Shown here: positions 35,889-64,000 of the stretch, piece by piece | Layout: every line of letters starts with the position of its first letter | How positions within the stretch are numbered: the stretch's first letter is position 1 | NCBI GenBank assembly: GCA_009781315.1 | Contig: WQYI01000002.1 | Span: 125,415 to 189,414 of the forward strand | Direction: 5' to 3' | From: Candidatus Endomicrobium embiratermitis | GTDB taxonomy: Bacteria > Elusimicrobiota > Endomicrobiia > Endomicrobiales > Endomicrobiaceae | DNA: 64,000 bases | Made by a program: the position numbers and the translations under genes | The notes under the pieces: model-generated | What the model was told of the DNA's origin: nothing | What the model saw: only the letters and a program-made list of their open reading frames with translations | The model's database searches: none

Positions 35889-38507
35889 ATGTTAAAGAAA
35901 ATTTTAGGGGCGATTTTCGGATCGCAAAATGAAAGGGATATCAAAGCCATATTGCCGATAGTCCAAAAAGTCAATGCTTTGGAACCTTCAATAAAAAAAC
36001 TTTCCGACGATGAATTGAAAGCAAAAACCGCGGAGTTTCGCGAAAGGCTTGAAAAAGGCGAAACGCTTGAAGATATTATGTCAGAAGCGTTTGCATGCGT
36101 AAGGGAAGCCTCCGTGAGAACCATAGGCTTAAGGCATTTTGACGTCCAGATTATGGGCGGATATATTTTGCACAAAGGCAAAATAGCCGAAATGCGCACC
36201 GGAGAAGGAAAAACTTTGGTGGCTACTCTTGCGTCGTATTTAAACGCTTTGCCCGCCAAAGGCGTGCATATCGTAACGGTCAACGATTATCTTGCCAAAA
36301 GAGACAAAGAGTGGATGGGCAGCATTCATGAAAAACTGGGGTTAACGGTCGGCAACGTTTCGCATGATAATACTAACGATGAAAGACGCGCCGCTTATAA
36401 TTGCGATATAACTTACGTCACAAACAACGAACTCGGTTTTGATTATTTAAGAGACAATATGGTTATATCAAAAGAGGACAGAGTATTGCGTCCTTTGAAT
36501 TACGCGATTATAGACGAAGTCGATTCGATTTTGATAGACGAGGCAAGGACGCCTTTGATTATTTCAGGCGCGGGCGAGCAGTCAACGGAAAAATATTATA
36601 TTTCCGACAGAATAGTTCCGATGCTTAAAGGCAGAAAAGTGACGGAGAACGAAGAAATAAAGGCGAAATACTCCGGCGAGGATTTGTCTAAAGGATATGA
36701 TTATCTCGTAGACGAAAAAAATCATTCGGTTGTTTTGACTGAGCAGGGCGTTCAGAAAGCCGAAAGAATTTTGGGCGTAAAAAATATTTACGACGATTTG
36801 CAGTCCGAGTGGGTTCATCATATAACGCAGGCCGTAAGGGCGCATAATTTGTATCACCGCGACGTGGAATACGTCGTAAAAGACGGTGAAGTTATTATTG
36901 TCGACGAATTTACGGGAAGGCTTATGCCTGGCAGAAGATGGTCGGACGGGCTTCATCAGGCGGTTGAAGCCAAAGAAAATATGAAAATAGCCGATGAAAA
37001 CCAAACGCTTGCCACAATAACTTTTCAGAATTTTTTCAAAATGTATAAAAAAATCGCGGGTATGACTGGTACGGCTTCTACGGAATCCGCCGAATTTTGG
37101 GAAATATACAAACTCGGCGTAGTCGAAGTTCCGACAAATAACGCGATGATAAGAAAGGATTTTCCCGACGTAATTTACAGAACCGAAAGGGAAAAAGACA
37201 ACGCGATAATAAACGAAGTCGAGGCGTCTTGGAGAAAAGGCCAGCCGGTTCTTGTGGGTACAAGATCTATCGAGAAATCCGAGAAACTTTCGGCGATGCT
37301 TAGAAAAAAAGGTATTCCGCATCAGGTTTTAAACGCAAAATACCATGAACTTGAAGCGCAGATTATAGCTAACGCCGGCGCAAAAAGCGCGGTGACGATT
37401 GCCACGAATATGGCGGGCAGAGGAACGGATATTGTTTTAGGCGCCGGAGACGTTGAACAAAATAAAGAAGTCATAGCTTTAGGCGGACTTCATATTATAG
37501 GCACCGAAAGGCATGAATCGCGAAGAATCGATAATCAGTTAAGAGGACGTTCAGGCAGACAGGGAGACCCGGGTTCATCAAGGTTTTTCTTATCCACGGA
37601 AGACGAACTTATGAGGCTTTTCGGTTCCGACAGAATAGGCGTTTTTATGCAGAGGCTCGGTCTTAAAGAAGGCGAAGATATTCAGCATCCTTTGATATCA
37701 AAAGCCGTTGAAGGCGCTCAAAGAAAAGTCGAAGGAAGCAACTTTGACATAAGAAAGCAGCTTGTAGATTTTGACAATGTAATGAACAAGCAGAGAGAAG
37801 CCGTTTACAGGCTCAGAAATGAAATCCTTGAAGGCGAAGACATAACGGAAACAATTAAGGATATGATAAAAGAGTCTGTTGACGAGAAAGTACAGCTCTG
37901 GGCTACAGCAAAATATCCCGAAGAGTGGGATTGGACAAGCATAGAAACCTGGATTTTGAAAGCTTTCGGAATAAAATACGAAATAGATAAAGATGCGATA
38001 GCTTATGTGACTCAGGAGGCTCTTGCTGAAGATTTAAACACGAAAATCCTTGAGGCTTATGAAAAAAGAAAAGAACAGTTAACTCCGGAATTATTGTCGC
38101 ATATCCAAAGAATGGTTTTGCTTCAAATGATAGATTCGTCATGGAGAGATCATTTATATGAGCTTGATCAGGTAAGGCGCGGAATAGGTTTCAGGGCGTA
38201 TGCGCAGAAAGATCCGAAAATCGAATATCAAAAAGAGTCTTTCAGGTTATTTGAATCGATGATGAAAAGAATAAGAGAAAGCACCGTGGAATACATTTTT
38301 AAAGTTCAGGTTGACGTAAGACCGCAGGGGATGATGAGGCCTCCGCAGGACGCGACGCAGTATAAAAATGAGGATTCAAAAGTAAATCCCGGATTGAAAA
38401 ATCCGTCAAACGATAAGGTTAAACCAAAAGATTTGAATAAAATAGGCAGAAACGACCCTTGTCCGTGCGGCAGCGGGAAAAAGTATAAAAAATGCTGCGG
38501 AGCTTAA
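35889..38507 (+). CDS. secA: Preprotein translocase ATPase SecA
   Basis: Motor of the Sec pathway that pushes unfolded proteins through SecYEG. 872 residues. Walker A is TGEGKT (104-109) after MR, the DEAD-type box is [20 protein letters not shown], motif III-VI follow ([32 protein letters not shown]), and the C-terminal zinc motif is [16 protein letters not shown] (CxCx8CC), which binds SecB or lipids. Start ATG follows AAGGGGAAACAA. It has its own upstream region after the rodA repeat; a TATAAT lies at 35852-35857 with only a weak -35. lnt follows after a repeat-filled gap. Confidence 0.98.
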
Positions 38508-38513
38508 ACGGCA

Positions 38514-38541
38514 GTGAGTAGTTAGTAGTGAGAATAAGTAG
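38514..38541 (+). repeat. Heptamer repeat arm after secA
   Basis: After AAACGGCA come GTGAGTA, GTTAGTA, GTGAGAA, TAAGTAG in 7-base steps. It is an arm of the modular family without a clear second arm; a GTCA element follows. Confidence 0.7.
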
Positions 38542-38559
38542 TGGACGTCAATTTGTTGT

Positions 38560-38668
38560 TGTCATTCCGGGCTTGACCCGGAATCCATGGTTGTTAAGAA
38601 CAATATTTTATTCCTTATTCTTTTAATGGCAAAGGCAAACGTGGATACCGGTTTTCACCGGTATGACA
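38560..38668 (+). repeat. GTCA/TGAC double-hairpin element
   Basis: Left hairpin ATTCCGGG-CTTGA-CCCGGAAT after TGTC, a middle of about 60 bases, and right hairpin ATACCGGT-TTTC-ACCGGTAT before GACA. It is closely related to the element inserted in prmC, sharing the whole left half and CAATATTTTATTCCTTA-like middle. Confidence 0.9.
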
Positions 38669-38692
38669 AATGTTTGTCTTTAGAGATACTCA

Positions 38693-38706
38693 GTTAGGAG
38701 TTAGGA
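38693..38706 (+). repeat. Two GTTAGGA heptamers serving as ribosome-binding site of lnt
   Basis: GTTAGGA occurs twice in succession and ends at the A of the ATG. The same unit forms the purQ insertion. Confidence 0.65.
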
Positions 38707-40268
38707 TGATAAGGAAGCGTCTGTCATTGCGTTGGAGAAAAGCTTTGTTTAAAGCTCCCAAAGCAATCCGGAAACTTTTAGTAAAAAATTCCCGTAATAT
38801 TTTTCTTTCAGTTTTAACAGGTTTATTGGCGGTTGCCGCGTTCCCTAAAATAAGCCTGTTTTTTTTAGCGTGGATTGCGCTTGTTCCTTTATTACTTGTA
38901 TTGTCGCGCTCAAGCGTTAAACAATCGTTTTTTTACGCGTTTTTGTCGGGTTTTGTTTTCAACGCGGCAGGGCTTTACTGGCTTATTCCTATGCTTCATT
39001 TTAACACGGGTTCGTATGTTCAGGCTTTTTCAGCTTCGTGCGTTTTATGGGCATATCTTGCTTTATATTGGGGAGTTTGGGGTTGGCTCTTTGCCGTAGC
39101 TAAAAAATATTTTTCATCTACGTGGATTTTTTCGGTTTTTATGCCAGCCGCATGGGTTGTTTTGGAATACGCGAGAACTTATTTCTTAACAGGTTTCCCG
39201 TGGATGCTTGCGGGTTATTCACAGTACCGTTTTACGGAAATAATACAAATCGCGGAATTTACCGGAGTTTACGGCGTGTCTTTTGTCTTGGTTTTTTGCA
39301 ATATACTTTTTTATTTCTGGATGACTGACAAAAAAGGAAATAAATATTTGTACTCCGCTCTGTTTTTAATAACAGCTCTTTCGGTTTTTGGCGCTTTCAG
39401 GCTCGATAAGTTTAAATTTTTCGGAAACGAAGAATTTACCGTCGCCATAGTTCAGCCCAATATCGACCAATATAAAAAATGGGATCAGGGATTTAAAGAC
39501 GAAATTTTATACAGCCTTGAATATTACGCCGATAAAATTTCCGACGATAAAGTAGATTTGGTGGTCTGGCCTGAAGCCGCGATGCCTGATTTTGTCCCTT
39601 ATGATAAACAGGCTCTGTTAACTGCCGAAAAAATCGCAAAAACCGCAGGCGGTTTAAATATCATAGGAGCTCCTCATAACGACAAATCCGGAAAATTGTT
39701 TAACGCGGTTTTTGAGTTTGACGGAAGCGGATATAAATCCGTTCATAAAAAAAATCACCTTGTGCCGTTCGGCGAATACGTGCCTTTGAGAAAACAATTA
39801 GGCAGATTTTTCGGCGTTTTAAACGATATGGGCGATTTTGAAAAAGGGACGGATAAAAAAGTTTTTACCGACGGTAAAGTTTTTGCCGGACCTACGATAT
39901 GCTCGGAAAATTTTTATCCGGACATATCAAGACAGTTTTGTCTTGACGGCGCAAAAGTTTTGACAAACCACACTAACGATGCGTGGTTTTTCGATACGGC
40001 GGCTCCTTACCAGCATTTTATGATGAATGTTTTCAGAGCCGTAGAAAACCGCAAATTTGTTTTAGTTTCGGCAAATTCGGGCGTGTCCGGCATTGTTGAA
40101 GCGTCGGGAAGAATAGTTTCTTTTATTCCCGCGTCGCAGGAAGCGCTTATAACAGCCGAGTTTTTACAAAATGATTTCCATACGTTTTATACGTTACGCG
40201 GCGATATTTTTGTAAAAATATGCATGTTTGTATTGATATTTTTGTTTGTAACGATTTTAATTTTGTAA
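38706..40268 (+). CDS. lnt: Apolipoprotein N-acyltransferase
   Basis: Adds the third acyl chain to lipoproteins in the inner membrane, implying a lipoprotein system of Gram-negative type. 520 residues: six or so membrane segments in the first 230 residues, then a nitrilase-like domain with the catalytic triad, Glu290 in VVWPEAAMPD, Lys in KNHLVPFGEYVP and Cys in GPTICSENFYPD. A terminal membrane segment follows. The frame is open from TTG 38670, but those 12 residues are repeat-encoded; ATG 38706 is preferred, with its ribosome-binding AGGAG formed by two GTTAGGA heptamers of a repeat arm. Confidence 0.93.
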   Translation: MIRKRLSLRWRKALFKAPKAIRKLLVKNSRNIFLSVLTGLLAVAAFPKISLFFLAWIALVPLLLVLSRSSVKQSFFYAFLSGFVFNAAGLYWLIPMLHFNTGSYVQAFSASCVLWAYLALYWGVWGWLFAVAKKYFSSTWIFSVFMPAAWVVLEYARTYFLTGFPWMLAGYSQYRFTEIIQIAEFTGVYGVSFVLVFCNILFYFWMTDKKGNKYLYSALFLITALSVFGAFRLDKFKFFGNEEFTVAIVQPNIDQYKKWDQGFKDEILYSLEYYADKISDDKVDLVVWPEAAMPDFVPYDKQALLTAEKIAKTAGGLNIIGAPHNDKSGKLFNAVFEFDGSGYKSVHKKNHLVPFGEYVPLRKQLGRFFGVLNDMGDFEKGTDKKVFTDGKVFAGPTICSENFYPDISRQFCLDGAKVLTNHTNDAWFFDTAAPYQHFMMNVFRAVENRKFVLVSANSGVSGIVEASGRIVSFIPASQEALITAEFLQNDFHTFYTLRGDIFVKICMFVLIFLFVTILIL

Positions 40269-40281
40269 AGAGGAGAATATT

Positions 40282-41371
40282 ATGTTGGAAAACCAGAAAG
40301 AAAGAATCGGGGAATTAAGGAGGTCTCTTTGATATAGATTCTAAAACGAATCAGATCAAAGAGCTTGAAATAGAAATTTCAGACCCTGATTTTTGGAACG
40401 ACCAGAATAAAGCGAAAAAAATTATGTCTGAACTTGACAGTCTGAAAAATCTGTGCGGTCTTTGGCGCGATATGGATAAGCGCGTAAAAGATTTGTCGGA
40501 CTTAAAAGAGCTTGCGGATTTGGAAAACGACGAAATTCTTTTGAAAGACATTGAAGAAGGAAGCAAAAAACTTGAAAAAGAGTTGTCTGCTTTTGAAACG
40601 AAAACCAAACTCGGCGGGCAACACGATAAAAATAACGCTATTATGTCCATTCACGCGGGAGCCGGCGGTACTGAATCCTGCGACTGGGCGCAAATGCTTG
40701 TGAGAATGTATTCAAGATGGGCCGAAGATAAAGGTTTTGAAGTCGAAGTCGTAGACAGTCTGGACGGCGACGAAGCGGGAATAAAAAGCATTACTATGAT
40801 AATCAAAGGAGAATACGCTTACGGTTTATTGCAGTCTGAAATAGGCGTTCACAGGCTTGTGAGGATTTCCCCTTTTGACGCGAACAAAAGAAGACATACG
40901 TCTTTTTCGTCTGTTGACGTAATACCTGAAGTCGAGGATAATATAGACATTGTTGTTGATGACAAAGATATAAGAATCGACACTTACAGGGCAAGCGGAG
41001 CCGGCGGTCAGCATATAAATAAAACCGATTCTGCCGTAAGAATTACGCATTTGTCTACGGGAATTATAGTCCAGTCCCAAAACGACCGTTCGCAGATAAA
41101 AAACAGAGCTACCGCTATGAAACTTTTAAAAGCGAAGCTTTACGAACTTGAGCGTGAAAAACAGCGCGCTTCCTATGAGAAACATTACAGCGAAAAAGGG
41201 GCGATAGAATGGGGGAGCCAGATACGCTCTTACGTGTTTATGCCTTATCAGCTTGTAAAAGATAACCGTACGGGTTATGAAACGTCCCAGGTCGCGGCCG
41301 TAATGGATGGCGACATAGACGATTTTATCGGGACGTATTTATCTTGGAAACTCGGCAATAAGAAAAAATAA
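40282..41371 (+). CDS. prfB: Peptide chain release factor 2 with programmed +1 frameshift
   Basis: RF2 releases the peptide at UGA and UAA. The first 16 codons from ATG 40282 (AGAGGAGA upstream) end at CTT followed by an in-frame TGA (40330-40332), with AAGGAGG placed just upstream as the internal stimulatory site; reading resumes in the +1 frame at GAT 40331. This is the known autoregulatory RF2 frameshift. The +1 frame carries SPFDANKRRHTSF (the SPF codon-recognition tripeptide) and SGAGGQHINKTDSAVR with the GGQ catalytic motif. The combined product is 362 residues, normal for RF2. It follows lnt by 13 bases. Confidence 0.97.
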
Positions 41372-41376
41372 TATAC

Positions 41377-41460
41377 GGATGCACGGAGGCGCAGATGCAT
41401 TGATGCATGGCAACTACTTTTGTCTTTGCTATGCATCCACGCATCTAAGCATATAATCTT
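41377..41460 (+). repeat. Modular palindromic repeat, octamer arms
   Basis: ACGGATGCAC start, units GGATGCAC, GGAGGCGC, AGATGCAT, TGATGCAT, core GGCAACTACTTTTGTCTTTG, right arm ATGCATCCACGCATCTAAGC. The core is in the orientation AACGACTTTGTCTTTGC. Confidence 0.85.
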
Positions 41461-41472
41461 CTGTCGTTGTAT

Positions 41473-41501
41473 TTGACAAATATAGAAAATTATTGCATAA
41501 T
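41473..41501 (+). promoter_or_regulatory. Sigma-70 promoter of rpmE
   Basis: TTGACA (41473-41478), a 17-base spacer and CATAAT (41496-41501). It lies 38 bases before the rpmE start and directly after a repeat. Confidence 0.75.
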
Positions 41502-41538
41502 TAATATCAATTTTTAATGAAAAAGGAGACGTTTAGAT

Positions 41539-41877
41539 ATGAAAGAAGCAATACATCCGAAATACGAGGAATGCACGGTATCGTGCGCCTGCGGTTATAC
41601 TTTTAAAACGCGTTCAACGAAACCTTCCATTAAGCTGGAAATATGCTCTAACTGCCATCCATTTTTTACAGGTAAGCAGAAACTTATAGATACGGCCGGA
41701 AGAGTCGAGAAATTCCAGAAACGTTTTGCAAAAACCGAAGGCAAAACCATAGTGAGAAAGAAAGCGGAAAAGAAAGTCCCGGCGCCTAGGAAAACTTCGG
41801 GAAAAATTCTTACGACTTCGCCTAAAAAAGCGAAGACTCCGGTAAAGAAAGACAAAGAAACAAAAGAAAAGAAATAG
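41539..41877 (+). CDS. rpmE: Ribosomal protein bL31 with long basic C-terminal tail
   Basis: Large-subunit ribosomal protein L31. The first 70 residues are the family: [11 protein letters not shown], then [27 protein letters not shown] and [10 protein letters not shown]. Cysteines in CAC and CSNC are the zinc-binding (C+) type. At 112 residues the protein is about 40 longer than the usual 66-75; the extra tail is almost all Lys, Pro, Thr and Ala, probably disordered and RNA-binding. AAAAAGGAGACG precedes the start. A strong terminator follows, so rpmE is probably transcribed alone. Confidence 0.95.
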
Positions 41878-41892
41878 TTTAATATAAAAAAA

Positions 41893-41935
41893 TATGACAG
41901 AGGGTCTTTAAACAACCTCTGTCATATTTTTTTTT
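41893..41935 (+). terminator. Rho-independent terminator after rpmE
   Basis: Perfect 11-base stem TATGACAGAGG with CCTCTGTCATA, 12-base loop, then a run of nine T (41927-41935). Confidence 0.9.
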
Positions 41936-41988
41936 CACCCTCACCCAACCCTCTCCCTGATTAGGGATAGGGTTGGGTGAGGGTGAAA
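41933..41988. repeat. Near-perfect long hairpin, CACCCTCACCC type
   Basis: TTTCACCCTCACCCAACCCT continuing CTCCCT pairs with AGGGAT, then AGGGTTGGGTGAGGGTGAAA, 25 of 26 bases, around a GATT loop. A related, shorter copy overlaps the start of tlyA. Confidence 0.85.
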
Positions 41989-42012
41989 TGAATCATTTTT
42001 AAGGGTGAAAAT

Positions 42013-43083
42013 ATGTTTTTGGAAAAACTTAAATCGTTAAACGAACAATTTAAAGAAGTTGAAAAAAAGCTCGGGGATCCTTCAATCGTCGCAAATCAGG
42101 AAGAATACCGCGAGCTTACAAAACAACATTCTTATCTTTTGCCTCTTTCGGAAAAATATAGCGAATATTCGAAACTTTTGTCGGACATAAAAGATGTCGA
42201 GGAATTGAAAAAATCCAATGACAGCGAAATAAAAGAAATGGCTTTGGCGGAATATGACGATTTGATAAGCAAAAGAGAAAAGACGGAAGCAGAAATAAAA
42301 GTTTTGCTTATACCTCCCGACCCTAATGAAAATAAGAACATCATAATTGAAATCCGCGCCGGTACGGGCGGCGAAGAAGCCGCGTTATTTGTCGGCGATT
42401 TATTTAGAATGTACACGAGATTTGCCGAAAGAAACGGCTGGAAATACGAGGTTATGGATTCAAACCCTACGGGACTGGGCGGTTATAAAGAAGTAATTTT
42501 TGAAGTCTCGGGCAACAGAGTCTGGCGTTATTTTAAATTTGAACGCGGCGCCCACAGAGTGCAGCGCGTGCCTGAAACCGAAGCTTCGGGCAGGGTGCAT
42601 ACTTCGGCTGTGACGGTTGCCGTTCTTCCCGAAGCCGAAGAAGTCGATGTTGAAATTAAAACGGACGAATTACGTATCGATACTTACAGGGCAAGCGGAG
42701 CCGGCGGGCAGCATGTAAATAAAACCGATTCCGCTATAAGAATTACCCATTTGCCGACAGGCCTTGTAGTCGCGTGTCAGGACGAACGCAGCCAGATAAA
42801 AAACAGGGCAAAAGCGTTTAAAGTTTTAAGGGCAAAGCTTTACGAGCAGAAAGTTCTTGAACATGAAAAAAAGCTGGCAGGCGAAAGAAAACAGCAGGTA
42901 GGCACCGGAGACAGGTCTGAAAAAATAAGAACTTACAATTTTCCGCAAAACAGGATAACCGATCACAGGATAGGATACAGCGTTTATAATATCGGCGAAG
43001 TCATGGACGGAGATTTGTCCGAACTTGTCAATAAACTGATTGAAGCCGATACGGAACGGCAATTAACAATTAATAATGAATAA
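42013..43083 (+). CDS. prfA: Peptide chain release factor 1
   Basis: RF1 releases the peptide at UAG and UAA. 356 residues. The codon-recognition PxT motif is PET in [16 protein letters not shown], and the GGQ motif is in [32 protein letters not shown] starts the central domain. The last residues (RQLTINNE) are encoded by a repeat arm, AACGGCAATTAAC and following heptamers, which also supplies the stop codon. prmC, which methylates the Gln of GGQ, follows 32 bases downstream, a common pairing. Confidence 0.97.
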
Positions 43084-43090
43084 TTAACGC
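43055..43090 (+). repeat. Heptamer repeat arm at the 3' end of prfA
   Basis: AACGGC is followed by AATTAAC, AATTAAT, AATGAAT, AATTAAC in 7-base steps; the prfA stop codon is inside. Second arm not found. Confidence 0.75.
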
Positions 43091-43115
43091 TTAATCGTAT
43101 CGCCCGAGGAATTAG

Positions 43116-44072
43116 ATGATGAAACAATCCAGAGACGTTTACTCGGTATTAAAATACGCCGTTCAACTATTGACGGATAGCGGATTATCAGACGCCAAAG
43201 CTTCCGCCGAAACACTTTTAAGTTTTGTTTTAAACACAAGCCGTTCAAAGCTTCCTTTGATAAGAAACCAAAAACTTTCCGAAAAAGAAATCAGCGTTTT
43301 TAACGATTATATTTTAAGACGTTCTAAAAGAGAACCCGCGGCTTACATAACCGGTTTTTGCGGTTTTATGGGATATGAGTTTTCGGTAAATAAAAACGTT
43401 TTGATACCGCGCCCGGAAACAGAACTTTTGGTTGAAGAAGTTTTAAAACTTAAATACAGTTATTCTTGTCATTCCGGGCTTGACCCGGAATCCATTGTTT
43501 CTAAAAACAATTCTTTATTCCTTAAGTTTTTAAAAAATGCTAACGTGGATTCCCGCTTTTGCGGGAATGACGGCAAAGTTGTTTTGGATTTATGCACGGG
43601 ATCCGGCTGCATAGCCGTAAGTCTGGCAAAATCCGGTTTATTTGAAAAAATTACAGCCGCGGATATAAGCGATAAAGCTTTGGAAACGGCCGTTAAAAAT
43701 GCGGATTTAAACGGTGTAAAAAATATAGAGTTTATAAAAAGCGATGTCTTTGAAAATCTTGCCGGAAGAAAATTTGATATAATTGTTTCAAATCCTCCTT
43801 ATATTTCACAGGAAGAGCGTGAACGGCTTGAGCCGGAGCTCGGCTTTGAACCTGTAATTGCTCTTATCGCTCCGAATGACGGTCTGTTTTTTTACAGGAA
43901 AATAGCAGAGCAGGCGAAACTATATTTGAATCAGGGCGGAATTATTTTACTTGAATTAAACGCGAATAAATCCGCTGAAATAAAAAAGATATTTCAGGAC
44001 GCCGGGTTTGAAGACGTCAAAATAATAAAAGACTATTCTGATCTGGACAGAATATTAAAAATAAGGACATAA
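43116..44072 (+). CDS. prmC: Release factor glutamine methyltransferase PrmC, with repeat insertion
   Basis: N5-glutamine methyltransferase acting on the GGQ motif of RF1 and RF2. The N-terminal helical domain ends in IPRPETELLVEEVL; the SAM motif is LDLCTGSGCIAVSLA and the catalytic NPPY is at 226-229 (IVSNPPYIS). At 318 residues it is about 35 longer than usual (275-290). The excess is residues 118-152 (CHSGLDPES to RFCGND), encoded by a complete GTCA/TGAC element of 105 bases that preserves the frame, in the linker between the two domains. The rest is intact. GAGGA precedes the start; ATG 43119 is an equally good alternative. Confidence 0.94.
   Translation: MMKQSRDVYSVLKYAVQLLTDSGLSDAKASAETLLSFVLNTSRSKLPLIRNQKLSEKEISVFNDYILRRSKREPAAYITGFCGFMGYEFSVNKNVLIPRPETELLVEEVLKLKYSYSCHSGLDPESIVSKNNSLFLKFLKNANVDSRFCGNDGKVVLDLCTGSGCIAVSLAKSGLFEKITAADISDKALETAVKNADLNGVKNIEFIKSDVFENLAGRKFDIIVSNPPYISQEERERLEPELGFEPVIALIAPNDGLFFYRKIAEQAKLYLNQGGIILLELNANKSAEIKKIFQDAGFEDVKIIKDYSDLDRILKIRT
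43467..43571 (+). repeat. GTCA/TGAC double-hairpin element inside prmC
   Basis: TGTC, hairpin ATTCCGGG-CTTGA-CCCGGAAT, a 55-base middle, hairpin ATTCCCGC-TTTT-GCGGGAAT, GAC. Length 105 bases, which is 35 codons. It matches the intergenic copy at 38560-38668. Confidence 0.92.
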
Positions 44073-44073
44073 T

Positions 44074-45327
44074 GTGGATAAAATAATAATTAACGGCGGC
44101 AGAAAATTAAAAGGCGAAGTAAAAATATCAGGATCAAAAAATTCGGCTTTGCCGATATTGTTTGCTTCTCTTTTAACGGACGAGCCTGTTGCCATTACAA
44201 ACGTACCGTCTCTTGCCGATATAGATACGACGATAGATTTTCTGAATTTCATAGGCAAAAAAAGCGTTAAAAAGGGAAATACGTTTAAAGCTTTGTCTTC
44301 CGGAAAATACAAGCACATTGCTCCTTACGATTTGGTAAGAAAAATGCGCGCGAGCGTTTTGATAATGGGGCCTCTTTTGGCAAGGCTGAATAAGGTGGAC
44401 GTTTCTCTGCCCGGAGGCTGCGCGATAGGCGCAAGACCCATAGATATTCATCTTGAAGCTTTTAAAAAACTCGGCGTGAAGATAGAAGTCGAAGGAGGGT
44501 ACGTAAAAACTTCTTGTGAAAACGGTTTATGCGGAGCGGATATAAAGTTCAGGTTTCCGAGCGTCGGAGCAACGGAAAACTTAATGCTTGCCGCAGTTTT
44601 GGCAAAAGGAACAACAAGAATAATAAACGCCGCTAAAGAACCCGAAATCGAAGATTTGGCTGATATTTTAAACAAAATGGGCGCGAAAGTTTCAGGCGCC
44701 GGTTCTAAAACCATAACAATAGAAGGAACGGACAAACTTCACGGCTGCAAACATAAAGTTATTCCGGACAGAATAGAAGCAGCCACTTATTTGATTGCAG
44801 CGGCTATTACAAAAGGCGAGATACTTCTTAAGGATGTAAATCCCAAGCATGTTAAAGCGGTTACGGACAAACTTAAAAAAGCAGGGATGTTTATTAAAGA
44901 GACTGAAAATACCGTTTACGCGAAATGGGTTAAAAATTTAAAGCCGCGCGATATAAGCACTGAAGTTTACCCGGGATTTCCTACCGACGTTCAGGCGCAG
45001 TGGATGGCTTTAATGTGCCTGTTGAAAGGCAAATCATGCATACAGGAAAATGTTTTTGAAAACAGGTTTTTGCATGTTGCTGAGCTCCAAAGGTTTGGAG
45101 CGGATTTAACCGTGGACGGCAAACTGGTTGGCATAAAAGGCGTGGAAAAACTTTCGGGCGCTCCGGTCATGGTTTCCGATTTAAGAGCCGGTGCTGCATT
45201 GGTTTTGGCAGGTCTTGCGGCTGAGGGGAAGACTGTTGTTTCAAGGATTTATCATCTTGACAGAGGATATGAATTTTTGGAAAAAAAATTTAAAAAACTC
45301 GGAGCGGATATAAAAAGAACAAAATAA
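44074..45327 (+). CDS. murA: UDP-N-acetylglucosamine 1-carboxyvinyltransferase MurA
   Basis: First committed step of peptidoglycan synthesis, adding enolpyruvate to UDP-GlcNAc. 417 residues. KISGSKNSALPIL carries the catalytic Lys and Asn; the PEP-binding cysteine is Cys116 in LPGGCAIGARP, so the enzyme is of the fosfomycin-sensitive type; FPTDVQAQWMAL and ENVFENRFLHV are further signatures. GTG start overlapping the prmC end region with TAAGGACATAAT upstream. A promoter for the tRNA gene follows closely, so murA may end its transcription unit here. Confidence 0.97.
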   Translation: MDKIIINGGRKLKGEVKISGSKNSALPILFASLLTDEPVAITNVPSLADIDTTIDFLNFIGKKSVKKGNTFKALSSGKYKHIAPYDLVRKMRASVLIMGPLLARLNKVDVSLPGGCAIGARPIDIHLEAFKKLGVKIEVEGGYVKTSCENGLCGADIKFRFPSVGATENLMLAAVLAKGTTRIINAAKEPEIEDLADILNKMGAKVSGAGSKTITIEGTDKLHGCKHKVIPDRIEAATYLIAAAITKGEILLKDVNPKHVKAVTDKLKKAGMFIKETENTVYAKWVKNLKPRDISTEVYPGFPTDVQAQWMALMCLLKGKSCIQENVFENRFLHVAELQRFGADLTVDGKLVGIKGVEKLSGAPVMVSDLRAGAALVLAGLAAEGKTVVSRIYHLDRGYEFLEKKFKKLGADIKRTK

Positions 45328-45333
45328 CCGCTG

Positions 45334-45362
45334 TTGACTTCAAAAGTATTTTTAAGTATAAT
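45334..45362 (+). promoter_or_regulatory. Strong sigma-70 promoter of the tRNA(CAT) gene
   Basis: TTGACT (45334-45339), a 17-base spacer and TATAAT (45357-45362), 18 bases before the tRNA. It is near the consensus. Confidence 0.85.
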
Positions 45363-45379
45363 TTGCGGACATTTCAGGC

Positions 45380-45453
45380 GGGCCTGTAGCTCAGTTGGTT
45401 AGAGCACTCGACTCATAATCGAATGGTCGTAGGTTCAAGTCCTACCAGGCCCA
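45380..45453 (+). tRNA. tRNA with CAT anticodon (Met, or Ile2)
   Basis: 74 bases. GGGCCTG pairs with CAGGCCC in the acceptor stem, the D arm is GCTCAGTTGGTTAGAGC, the anticodon loop CTCATAA gives CAT, and the T arm is CGTAGGTTCAAGTCCTACC. CCA is not encoded. A CAT anticodon could be elongator Met or lysidine-modified Ile2; the C1-type initiator mismatch is absent. Confidence 0.93.
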
Positions 45454-58835: not shown

Positions 58836-58864
58836 CATGGATGCCGACTTTCGTCGGCATGACA
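58668..58864. repeat. GTCA/TGAC inverted arms flanking the GIY-YIG remnant
   Basis: Left arm 58668-58685 and right arm 58847-58864 are inverted copies matching at 16 of 18 bases. The right end keeps its hairpin ATGCCGAC-TTTC-GTCGGCAT (with one shared base) and the TGAC end; the left hairpin is cut. Confidence 0.8.
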
Positions 58865-62877: not shown

Positions 62878-64000
62878 ATGGCAATACCTGACGATATAAT
62901 TGAAAGGGTTAGGCTCTCAAGCGATATAATATCCGTTATCAGAGAGTATTTGCCCGACTTAAAAAGGGCTGGCAGAAACTGGAAAGCCTGCTGCCCTTTT
63001 CATAATGAAAAAACGCCGTCTTTTATGGTAAATCCCGAAAAAGGAATATTCAAATGTTTCGGGTGCAATGCGGCGGGAGACGTTTTTAAGTTTGTTATGC
63101 TTATGGACAATCTTTCGTGGGTTGAGTCCATAAAGAAACTGGCAAAAAAATCCGGTATAGAAATAAAAGAAACAAAAGAAGACGTTGTAAAAGTTTCCGA
63201 GAAAACAAAGCTCTTTGAGATTTTGGAAAGTTCGGCAAGGTTTTATCACAGGCATCTTTTAGAAAGCGAATCCGCCAAAAAAGCGAGAGAATACCTTTCA
63301 AAACGCGGAATTACGTCTGAAACAGTTAAAAAGTTTCAATTGGGATACGCTCCCAAAGGACAACTTTTGCAGTCAGCGTTGAAAAAAGGTTATACGACGG
63401 AAATACTTTCTAAAGCGGGAATTATAACCAAAACCGAAAGAGGAAGTTTTTACGAATATATGTCGGAAAGGTTAGTGTTTCCGATTTTTGACGTTCAGGG
63501 AAGAGTCGTGGCTTTCGGCGGAAGAACTTTGACGGACCAGAACCCGAAATATTTAAATACTCCCGAAACGGCTGTTTATTCAAAGTCTTTCAATCTTTAC
63601 GGACTGTTCCAGACGCTTCCCGAGTTGAGAAAAGAAAGAAAGATTATAGTTCTGGAAGGTTATGTCGACGTTGTTATTCCCCAGCAGTTCGGAATAACCG
63701 GAGCAGTGGCTTCTTTAGGAACGGCTTTTACGCATAGCCACGCGAAACTTATCGCAAGATACGCAGATTCGGCCAGACTTCTTTTTGACGCGGATGAAGC
63801 CGGCAGAACCGCGACACAGAGAGCTTTGGAAATTTTGGTTGAAGATTCGGTTGAATGTTCTGTATCGTCTTTGCCCGAAAATACGGACGCGGACGAATAT
63901 CTTAACGAGCACGGCAAAGAGAAATTTCTTAAACTCTTGGATGAGACGTCCGAAACCGCGATAAGTTTTATGATTAACAGGGTTTCGTCTTTGGTAAAAG
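62878..64000 (+). CDS. dnaG: DNA primase DnaG, 3' end cut by window edge
   Basis: Makes RNA primers at the replication fork. The frame runs open to the window end (374 codons). The N-terminal zinc domain is CCPFHNEKTPSF to GIFKCFGC, a CHC2 type; the RNA polymerase domain has LFPIFDVQGRVVAFGGR (with F at the V), KYLNTPETAVYSKS, and the TOPRIM segment VLEGYVDVV, LGTAFTHSHA and LLFDADEAGRTA. ATG 62878 gives the family start AIPDDIIERVRLSSDI. The repeat ends directly before it, so there is no strong ribosome-binding site. rpoD may follow, as in the standard operon, but is outside the window. Confidence 0.97.
   Translation, partial: MAIPDDIIERVRLSSDIISVIREYLPDLKRAGRNWKACCPFHNEKTPSFMVNPEKGIFKCFGCNAAGDVFKFVMLMDNLSWVESIKKLAKKSGIEIKETKEDVVKVSEKTKLFEILESSARFYHRHLLESESAKKAREYLSKRGITSETVKKFQLGYAPKGQLLQSALKKGYTTEILSKAGIITKTERGSFYEYMSERLVFPIFDVQGRVVAFGGRTLTDQNPKYLNTPETAVYSKSFNLYGLFQTLPELRKERKIIVLEGYVDVVIPQQFGITGAVASLGTAFTHSHAKLIARYADSARLLFDADEAGRTATQRALEILVEDSVECSVSSLPENTDADEYLNEHGKEKFLKLLDETSETAISFMINRVSSLVK

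Follow-up and report, generated by a model that had tools for sequence, protein, structure and literature searches.

The window (the whole stretch of 64,000 nucleotides analysed) from Candidatus Endomicrobium embiratermitis holds prmC between prfA and a murA-like gene. A double-hairpin element lies in frame inside prmC, and related copies lie elsewhere in the window:

42013..43083, forward strand: prfA (RF1, the PrmC substrate), upstream neighbour of prmC, GGQ motif present
43116..44072, forward strand: prmC (release factor glutamine methyltransferase), intact, 318 aa, with the in-frame insert as residues 118-152
43467..43572, forward strand: complete head-to-head REP dimer, 106 bp, outer tags TGTC ... 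GACG (CGTC on the other strand)
43467..43494, forward strand: left REP unit, tag TGTC, 8-bp stem ATTCCGGG/CCCGGAAT, 5-nt loop CTTGA, tail CCA
43495..43545, forward strand: A+T-rich spacer between both units, related to the spacers of other full copies
43546..43572, reverse strand: right REP unit, tag CGTC, 8-bp stem ATTCCCGC/GCGGGAAT, 4-nt loop AAAA, tail CCA
44074..45327, forward strand: murA-like gene, directly downstream of prmC
38560..38668, forward strand: intergenic copy of the dimer between secA and lnt, with a prmC-type left unit and a different right stem (GTCATACCGGTGAAAACCGGTATCCA)
58838..58863, reverse strand: single REP unit GTCATGCCGACGAAAGTCGGCATCCA; ORFs across it reach at most about 30 codons

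Both hairpins of the GTCA/TGAC element reported in the earlier note were recovered exactly. Positions 43468-43494 read GTCATTCCGGGCTTGACCCGGAATCCA, and positions 43546-43571 read GTCATTCCCGCAAAAGCGGGAATCCA on the reverse strand; 0 chance occurrences of either are expected from shuffles of the window. The stretch from GTCA to TGAC is 104 bp (43468-43571), and the T at 43467 brings it to 105 bp, or 35 codons. This length was given correctly before; the bounds then placed at 43467-43571 are better set at 43467-43572, with the tags included. The left unit is translated as CHSGLDPES, and the right unit, read on the forward strand, as VDSRFCGND. The residues said to be added, from CHSGLDPES to RFCGND, are indeed residues 118-152 of PrmC (CHSGLDPESIVSKNNSLFLKFLKNANVDSRFCGND). 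The left half shares TGTCATTCCGGGCTTGACCCGGAATCCAT with the intergenic copy at 38560-38668 without a mismatch, as had been noticed, and the spacer consensus of the other full copies contains ..CTAAAAATAATNTNTTATTCCTTATGTCTTTTAAC... The prmC element folds at -32.9 kcal/mol with a z-score of -4.6. No Rfam family matched within 38000-45400, the prmC element included.

The domains and motifs of PrmC are intact on both sides of the insert, including the N-domain, IPRPETE, LDLCTGSGC, and NPPY. Retention of the SAM motif and NPPY is therefore correct as first described, and the protein scores 270.8 bits against TIGR03534 (cutoff 199.1). This was the single PrmC match in the whole genome. The prfA-prmC order is kept in the relatives examined, and murA follows where the locus extends that far. 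GGQ is kept in both release factors of the genome. The description of prmC as essential was overstated, since hemK was deleted in Xanthomonas citri (PMC8999716); the gene is not strictly essential.

Two observations concern the release factor genes. The last residues of PrfA, RQLTINNE (window 43060-43083), are encoded by the start of a AATTAACAATTAATAATGAATAATTAAC simple repeat that is found elsewhere in the genome, and PrfA C-termini vary between relatives. Upstream, prfB (window 40282-41371) has the classic RF2 layout, with a short ORF from about 40282 and AGGAGG followed by CTTTGA near 40327-40332. The CTTTGA is likely a programmed +1 frameshift site, and for this reason the 315-aa ORF at 40424 would be only the later part of RF2.

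Empty site in relatives and position of the insert

PrmC orthologues were aligned from 29 genomes of the same family, 3 of them from the same genus. The possibility that all relatives carry the same 35 residues does not hold, as the insert was absent from all 29 orthologues. In nearly all relatives, 17 residues separate IPRxETE from motif I, and the full range is 13 to 24 (13 in G001, 14 in G002, and 24 in G004), compared with 52 here. Since 52 is 17 plus 35, the net insertion is 105 bp and falls within the linker that precedes the SAM-binding strand. The short spacing between IPRxETE and the SAM motif also indicates an empty site in every relative. When exactly 105 bp were cut from prmC, the remaining DNA aligned to that of G003 over 102 bases without gaps (73/102 identical).

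The linker position assigned in the earlier note agrees with this spacing and with solved structures. In E. coli HemK (2b3t, 1t43), the corresponding site is a stretch of 8 residues that lies between positions 104 and 113 of the chain. The match of the N-terminal part to HemK runs up to residue 104 of the chain and that of the methyltransferase part starts at 113, which places the element in the hinge that leads into the first strand of the methyltransferase domain. AlphaFold prediction of PrmC without an alignment gave a mean pLDDT of 40.6 and was uninformative.

No target duplication was visible at the prmC insertion when compared with the family relatives. With its tags the element measures 106 bp, against a gain of 105 bp, so a single base was either lost or is shared with the target. 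The alignment proposed as a check in the earlier note delivers the net boundary of 105 bp, while the exact base needs an empty allele from the same species, as orthologues from other species do not fix it to a single position.

The repeat family and its copies in reading frames

The element belongs to a family with many copies. An exact pattern detected 105 REP units in both orientations across the whole genome, and the reversed control pattern detected 0. The 26-mer left unit has 9 exact copies in the 1.9 Mb genome and 20 within three mismatches. With the prmC copy as the query, BLAST returned 43 matches. Among about 76 elements, at least 31 are complete head-to-head dimers, 64 to 125 bp in length; the others are singles and dimers with degenerate partners. 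Unit lengths of 26 nt (51 units) and 27 nt (18 units) fit loops of 4 and 5 nt, and both prmC units fit this scheme. Another 32 units measure 31 nt and have an extended loop or stem.

Base pairing is preserved while the stem sequence changes. Across 107 distinct units, 850 of 856 stem positions pair, perfect 8-bp stems occur in 101 units, and 26 different left stems with compensatory changes were counted. The search pattern fixed stem positions 1-2 and 4-5 and the tail (CCA or CTA by construction), so the informative positions are the free ones (3, 6, 7, and 8), which are paired in nearly all units. The third position is mainly T-A (63), A-T (21), or C-G (18), and positions 6-8 are likewise variable yet paired. 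Covariation in the free stem positions is strong. The base before GTC, which lies outside the pattern, is T in 95 units and C in 12, a pyrimidine in 107/107.

Unit counts range from 0 to 473 across genomes of the one family, and are not matched by counts of Y1 transposases. The highest count was found in G017, where the units form dense tandem-like clusters, for example on contigs C43 and C44.

The only Y1/RAYT-like transposase gene of the genome encodes 250 aa (L081, 1465-2217; G000:C1, about 62880-63633). It scores 68.6 bits against NF047646, below the cutoff of 80. No REP units flank this gene; it is bounded by inverted repeats of the form GTGTCA..GGGGACGTTGTTTTTGACAC, which have no relation to the GTCATTCC units, and it resembles the TIR-flanked type described in PMC3733652. 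Among the relatives, the presence of Y1 genes does not follow unit counts, and G003 has 127 units and no Y1 gene. A RAYT as the mobiliser is unsupported, given the different inverted repeats of the Y1 gene and the lack of agreement between Y1 genes and unit counts.

All collected units were checked for ORFs across them, and at least five ORFs with in-frame copies, prmC included, were found. The four further ORFs of this genome are as follows:

G000:C1, about 390300-390393: PolA (L096), full in-frame REP dimer in the linker that joins the 5' nuclease to the Klenow part
G000:C1, 270540-270565: MurJ (L090, 577-2271), one in-frame unit in a loop, query residues 218 to 263
G000:C4, 27999-28024: FolK (L043, 1114-1713), single in-frame unit read as ANVDSRFRGND, in a loop before the TIPHKE strand
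G000:C2, 193971-194045: 1003-aa ORF (L113, 192-3200), in-frame dimer read as VIPTKVGIQ...VDSDFHRND

The inserts of PrmC, PolA, MurJ, and FolK are located in linkers or loops when compared with solved structures or relatives. In solved MurJ, about six residues take the place of loop 218-263. The 1003-aa ORF has no Pfam match. The ORFs of Ddl (L128), Hpt (L015), and L009 were left out, as they overlap units only through upstream start codons; ORFs below about 150 aa over units in G017 and other relatives were counted as spurious. Besides the unit, the MurJ loop contains AATTAACAATTAA-like stretches, and the unit stands beside a AATTAATAATGAACAATTAATAATTAAC-type simple repeat, both being translated.

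All five ORFs share a single phase for the distal unit, translated as xDSxFxxND. A second reverse phase, WIPAFAGMT, is likewise free of stops but hydrophobic, and a TGA interrupts the remaining one. The terminal GAC of the distal unit forms a codon (..GND or ..GDD) in the five genes and in a 984-aa UvrD-like helicase ORF of G003 (L322, G003:C11), which carries an in-frame dimer SVIPEGFYRETTFKNGSPIQTFGDD in the equivalent phase.

Two of these copies have counterparts in the sister species G001. At the matching site of G001 PolA, 64 of 96 nt are identical to the dimer, and 0 of 1000 codon shuffles score as high; judged from this similarity, the PolA copy is present there in a decayed form that is still in frame. 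Similarly, G001 FolK carries the unit-like TTGGTTCCGGATTTCGCCGGAACGGC in the same phase (21/26 identical to the MurJ unit and 19/26 to the FolK unit), and its loop has about 30 more residues beside this diverged stretch. The FolK copy probably persists in G001 in the same way, although an independent insertion may account for it instead. In both remnants the frame is held and the residues have changed (SVLIGDP to SASAGN), which fits a tolerated spacer. The PrmC copy looks the youngest of the copies compared, because its stems are perfect and it is absent from G001-G003. G003 carries, in the same PolA linker, a REP-like unit of another kind (ATTCTGCG...CGCAGAATGAC). These loops also accommodate other simple repeats, namely the AATTAACAATTAA-like stretches in MurJ here and AATTACGAATTACG in PolA of G003.

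Origin and fate of the prmC insert

It is very probable that a head-to-head CGTC-type REP dimer was inserted in the prmC linker, survived in frame, and now forms a near-neutral loop. That inserted DNA became coding sequence, as the earlier note held, is borne out by the multi-copy element and the empty site in every relative. Mobility was also claimed; repetition and the empty site stand, and from the copy number and this site the element is presumably mobile. The dimer would have entered, by a putative transposition, the short, length-variable linker between the end of the IPRPETE helix and the VLDLCTGSGC strand. The net 105 bp would by chance be a multiple of three and free of stops, and the allele would survive. 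The ribosome would then read through the insert and produce a full PrmC with an extra hydrophilic loop, presumably with its activity retained. The 35-residue hydrophilic loop would most likely be of little functional consequence. Survivorship would explain the recurrence in several genes: the rare alleles that are in frame, stop-free, and well placed would be kept, as near-neutral spacers in tolerant linkers. At least one of six frames is open throughout in 26 of the 31 complete dimers, usually only one, and exonisation therefore needs no special property of the element. The permissive factor seems to be the loop and not the element.

Other readings of the same data were weighed. From the shared phase one could argue that the family itself was filtered for units that translate into a hydrophilic spacer, in which case exonisation would belong to the way these elements persist and would be no accident. 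This is unlikely, and the phase preference is a lead only, because the cases are few and were noticed post hoc. The insert could also have been selected, if the loop altered PrmC-release factor docking or PrmC stability to the benefit of the cell. The same hydrophilic phase (xDSxFxxND) of the distal unit in all five genes would agree with selection, as would the decayed in-frame dimer persisting in PolA of the sister species. However, tolerance of hydrophilic loops explains the phase bias, and the PolA and FolK remnants keep the frame and not the residues, as a spacer would. The proteins hit are unrelated to each other, and no other PrmC of the family has the insert. A selected benefit is thus quite improbable.

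Inactivation of prmC, with a young pseudogene whose frame is open by luck, is very improbable. An insertion beside motif I could disturb folding, and the activity of PrmC is a prediction from sequence; but the ORF is full length, all four regions named above (N-domain, IPRPETE, LDLCTGSGC, NPPY) are intact, and the TIGR03534 score is above the cutoff. The gene is also the sole prmC copy in a genome where both release factors keep GGQ, and an unconstrained allele would keep the frame in about 1 of 3 cases and be open in few frames. The genome is a 25-contig draft, and repeats are often breakpoints, which would allow a misjoin at the repeat during assembly or binning. Such an artefact is extremely improbable, as prfA, both prmC halves, and murA are contiguous and ordered as in relatives, the net insertion is exactly in frame, several other genes are alike, and contig C2 is 212 kb with the element far from its ends.

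The insertion of a dimer that survived as a tolerated loop therefore remains the preferred reading. The locus offers a clear case, and one that can be dated, of a short, presumably mobile hairpin turned into coding sequence in an enzyme that modifies translation factors. A fresh copy in PrmC and decayed copies in PolA and probably FolK provide, together with the sister genomes, a small age series, which makes the question of how a non-coding repeat becomes a protein loop testable. Annotators are warned that protein stretches like CHSGLDPES and WIPAFAGMT are repeats.

Comparison with known systems

REPINs consist of two inverted REPs and a spacer that behave as one unit and are mobilised by RAYTs. 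The elements here are REPIN-like as inverted REP pairs with a spacer. Unlike the REPIN/RAYT system, they have no GTAG tag, and no RAYT flanked by units is present.

The closest description is the CGTC REP superfamily of Di Nocera et al. 2013 (PMC3733652). In the available part of that paper, these REPs have an unpaired terminal CGTC tag, often TGTC, stems of 8-9 bp with complementary AT at the first and second positions, a loop of 4 or 5 nt, and a CCA tail. They occur mainly as head-to-head dimers, mainly intergenic, with some copies inside genes such as that of DNA polymerase I, and no transposase gene is linked to them there. The units here show the same features of tag, stem, loop and tail, head-to-head dimers, and no transposase gene; common to both are the tags, the 8-bp stems starting with AT, the loops, the CCA tail, the dimers, the mainly intergenic placement, and the intragenic copies. 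The prmC dimer is longer, 35 aa against the 20-30 residues given as typical in the available part of PMC3733652, which does not describe the additional 31-nt, longer-loop units or name prmC, folK, or murJ as hosts.

The comparison with Rickettsia drawn in the earlier note is correct and can be sharpened to this superfamily, as R. conorii RPE-4 and RPE-6 are equated with CGTC repeats in the same part of PMC3733652. Rickettsia RPEs are palindromic inserts coding in frame in unrelated housekeeping genes at solvent-exposed sites (PMC3767692, citing Ogata et al. 2000, 2002). RPE-4, RPE-6, and RPE-7 resemble the units here in their in-frame insertion in conserved genes with the ORF kept. Rickettsia orthologues without recognisable RPEs have diverged insert DNA at the same site (PMC3767692), a pattern similar to PolA here and in G001. 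Such conservation of the site in related species holds for PolA and probably FolK in G001, but not for PrmC. The decorated genes of Rickettsia are far more numerous and are conserved between species, whereas the PrmC insertion is found in one species of the sampled genus. A PrmC-related Rickettsia case may exist, because the Rickettsia tRNA(m7G) methyltransferase carries RPE-6 (PMC3767692) and NCBIfam names a PrmC/TrmB fusion. The phenomenon has thus been described before, in Rickettsia and in some other bacteria, and neither the element nor the event is new in kind; the host gene and the lineage may be new.
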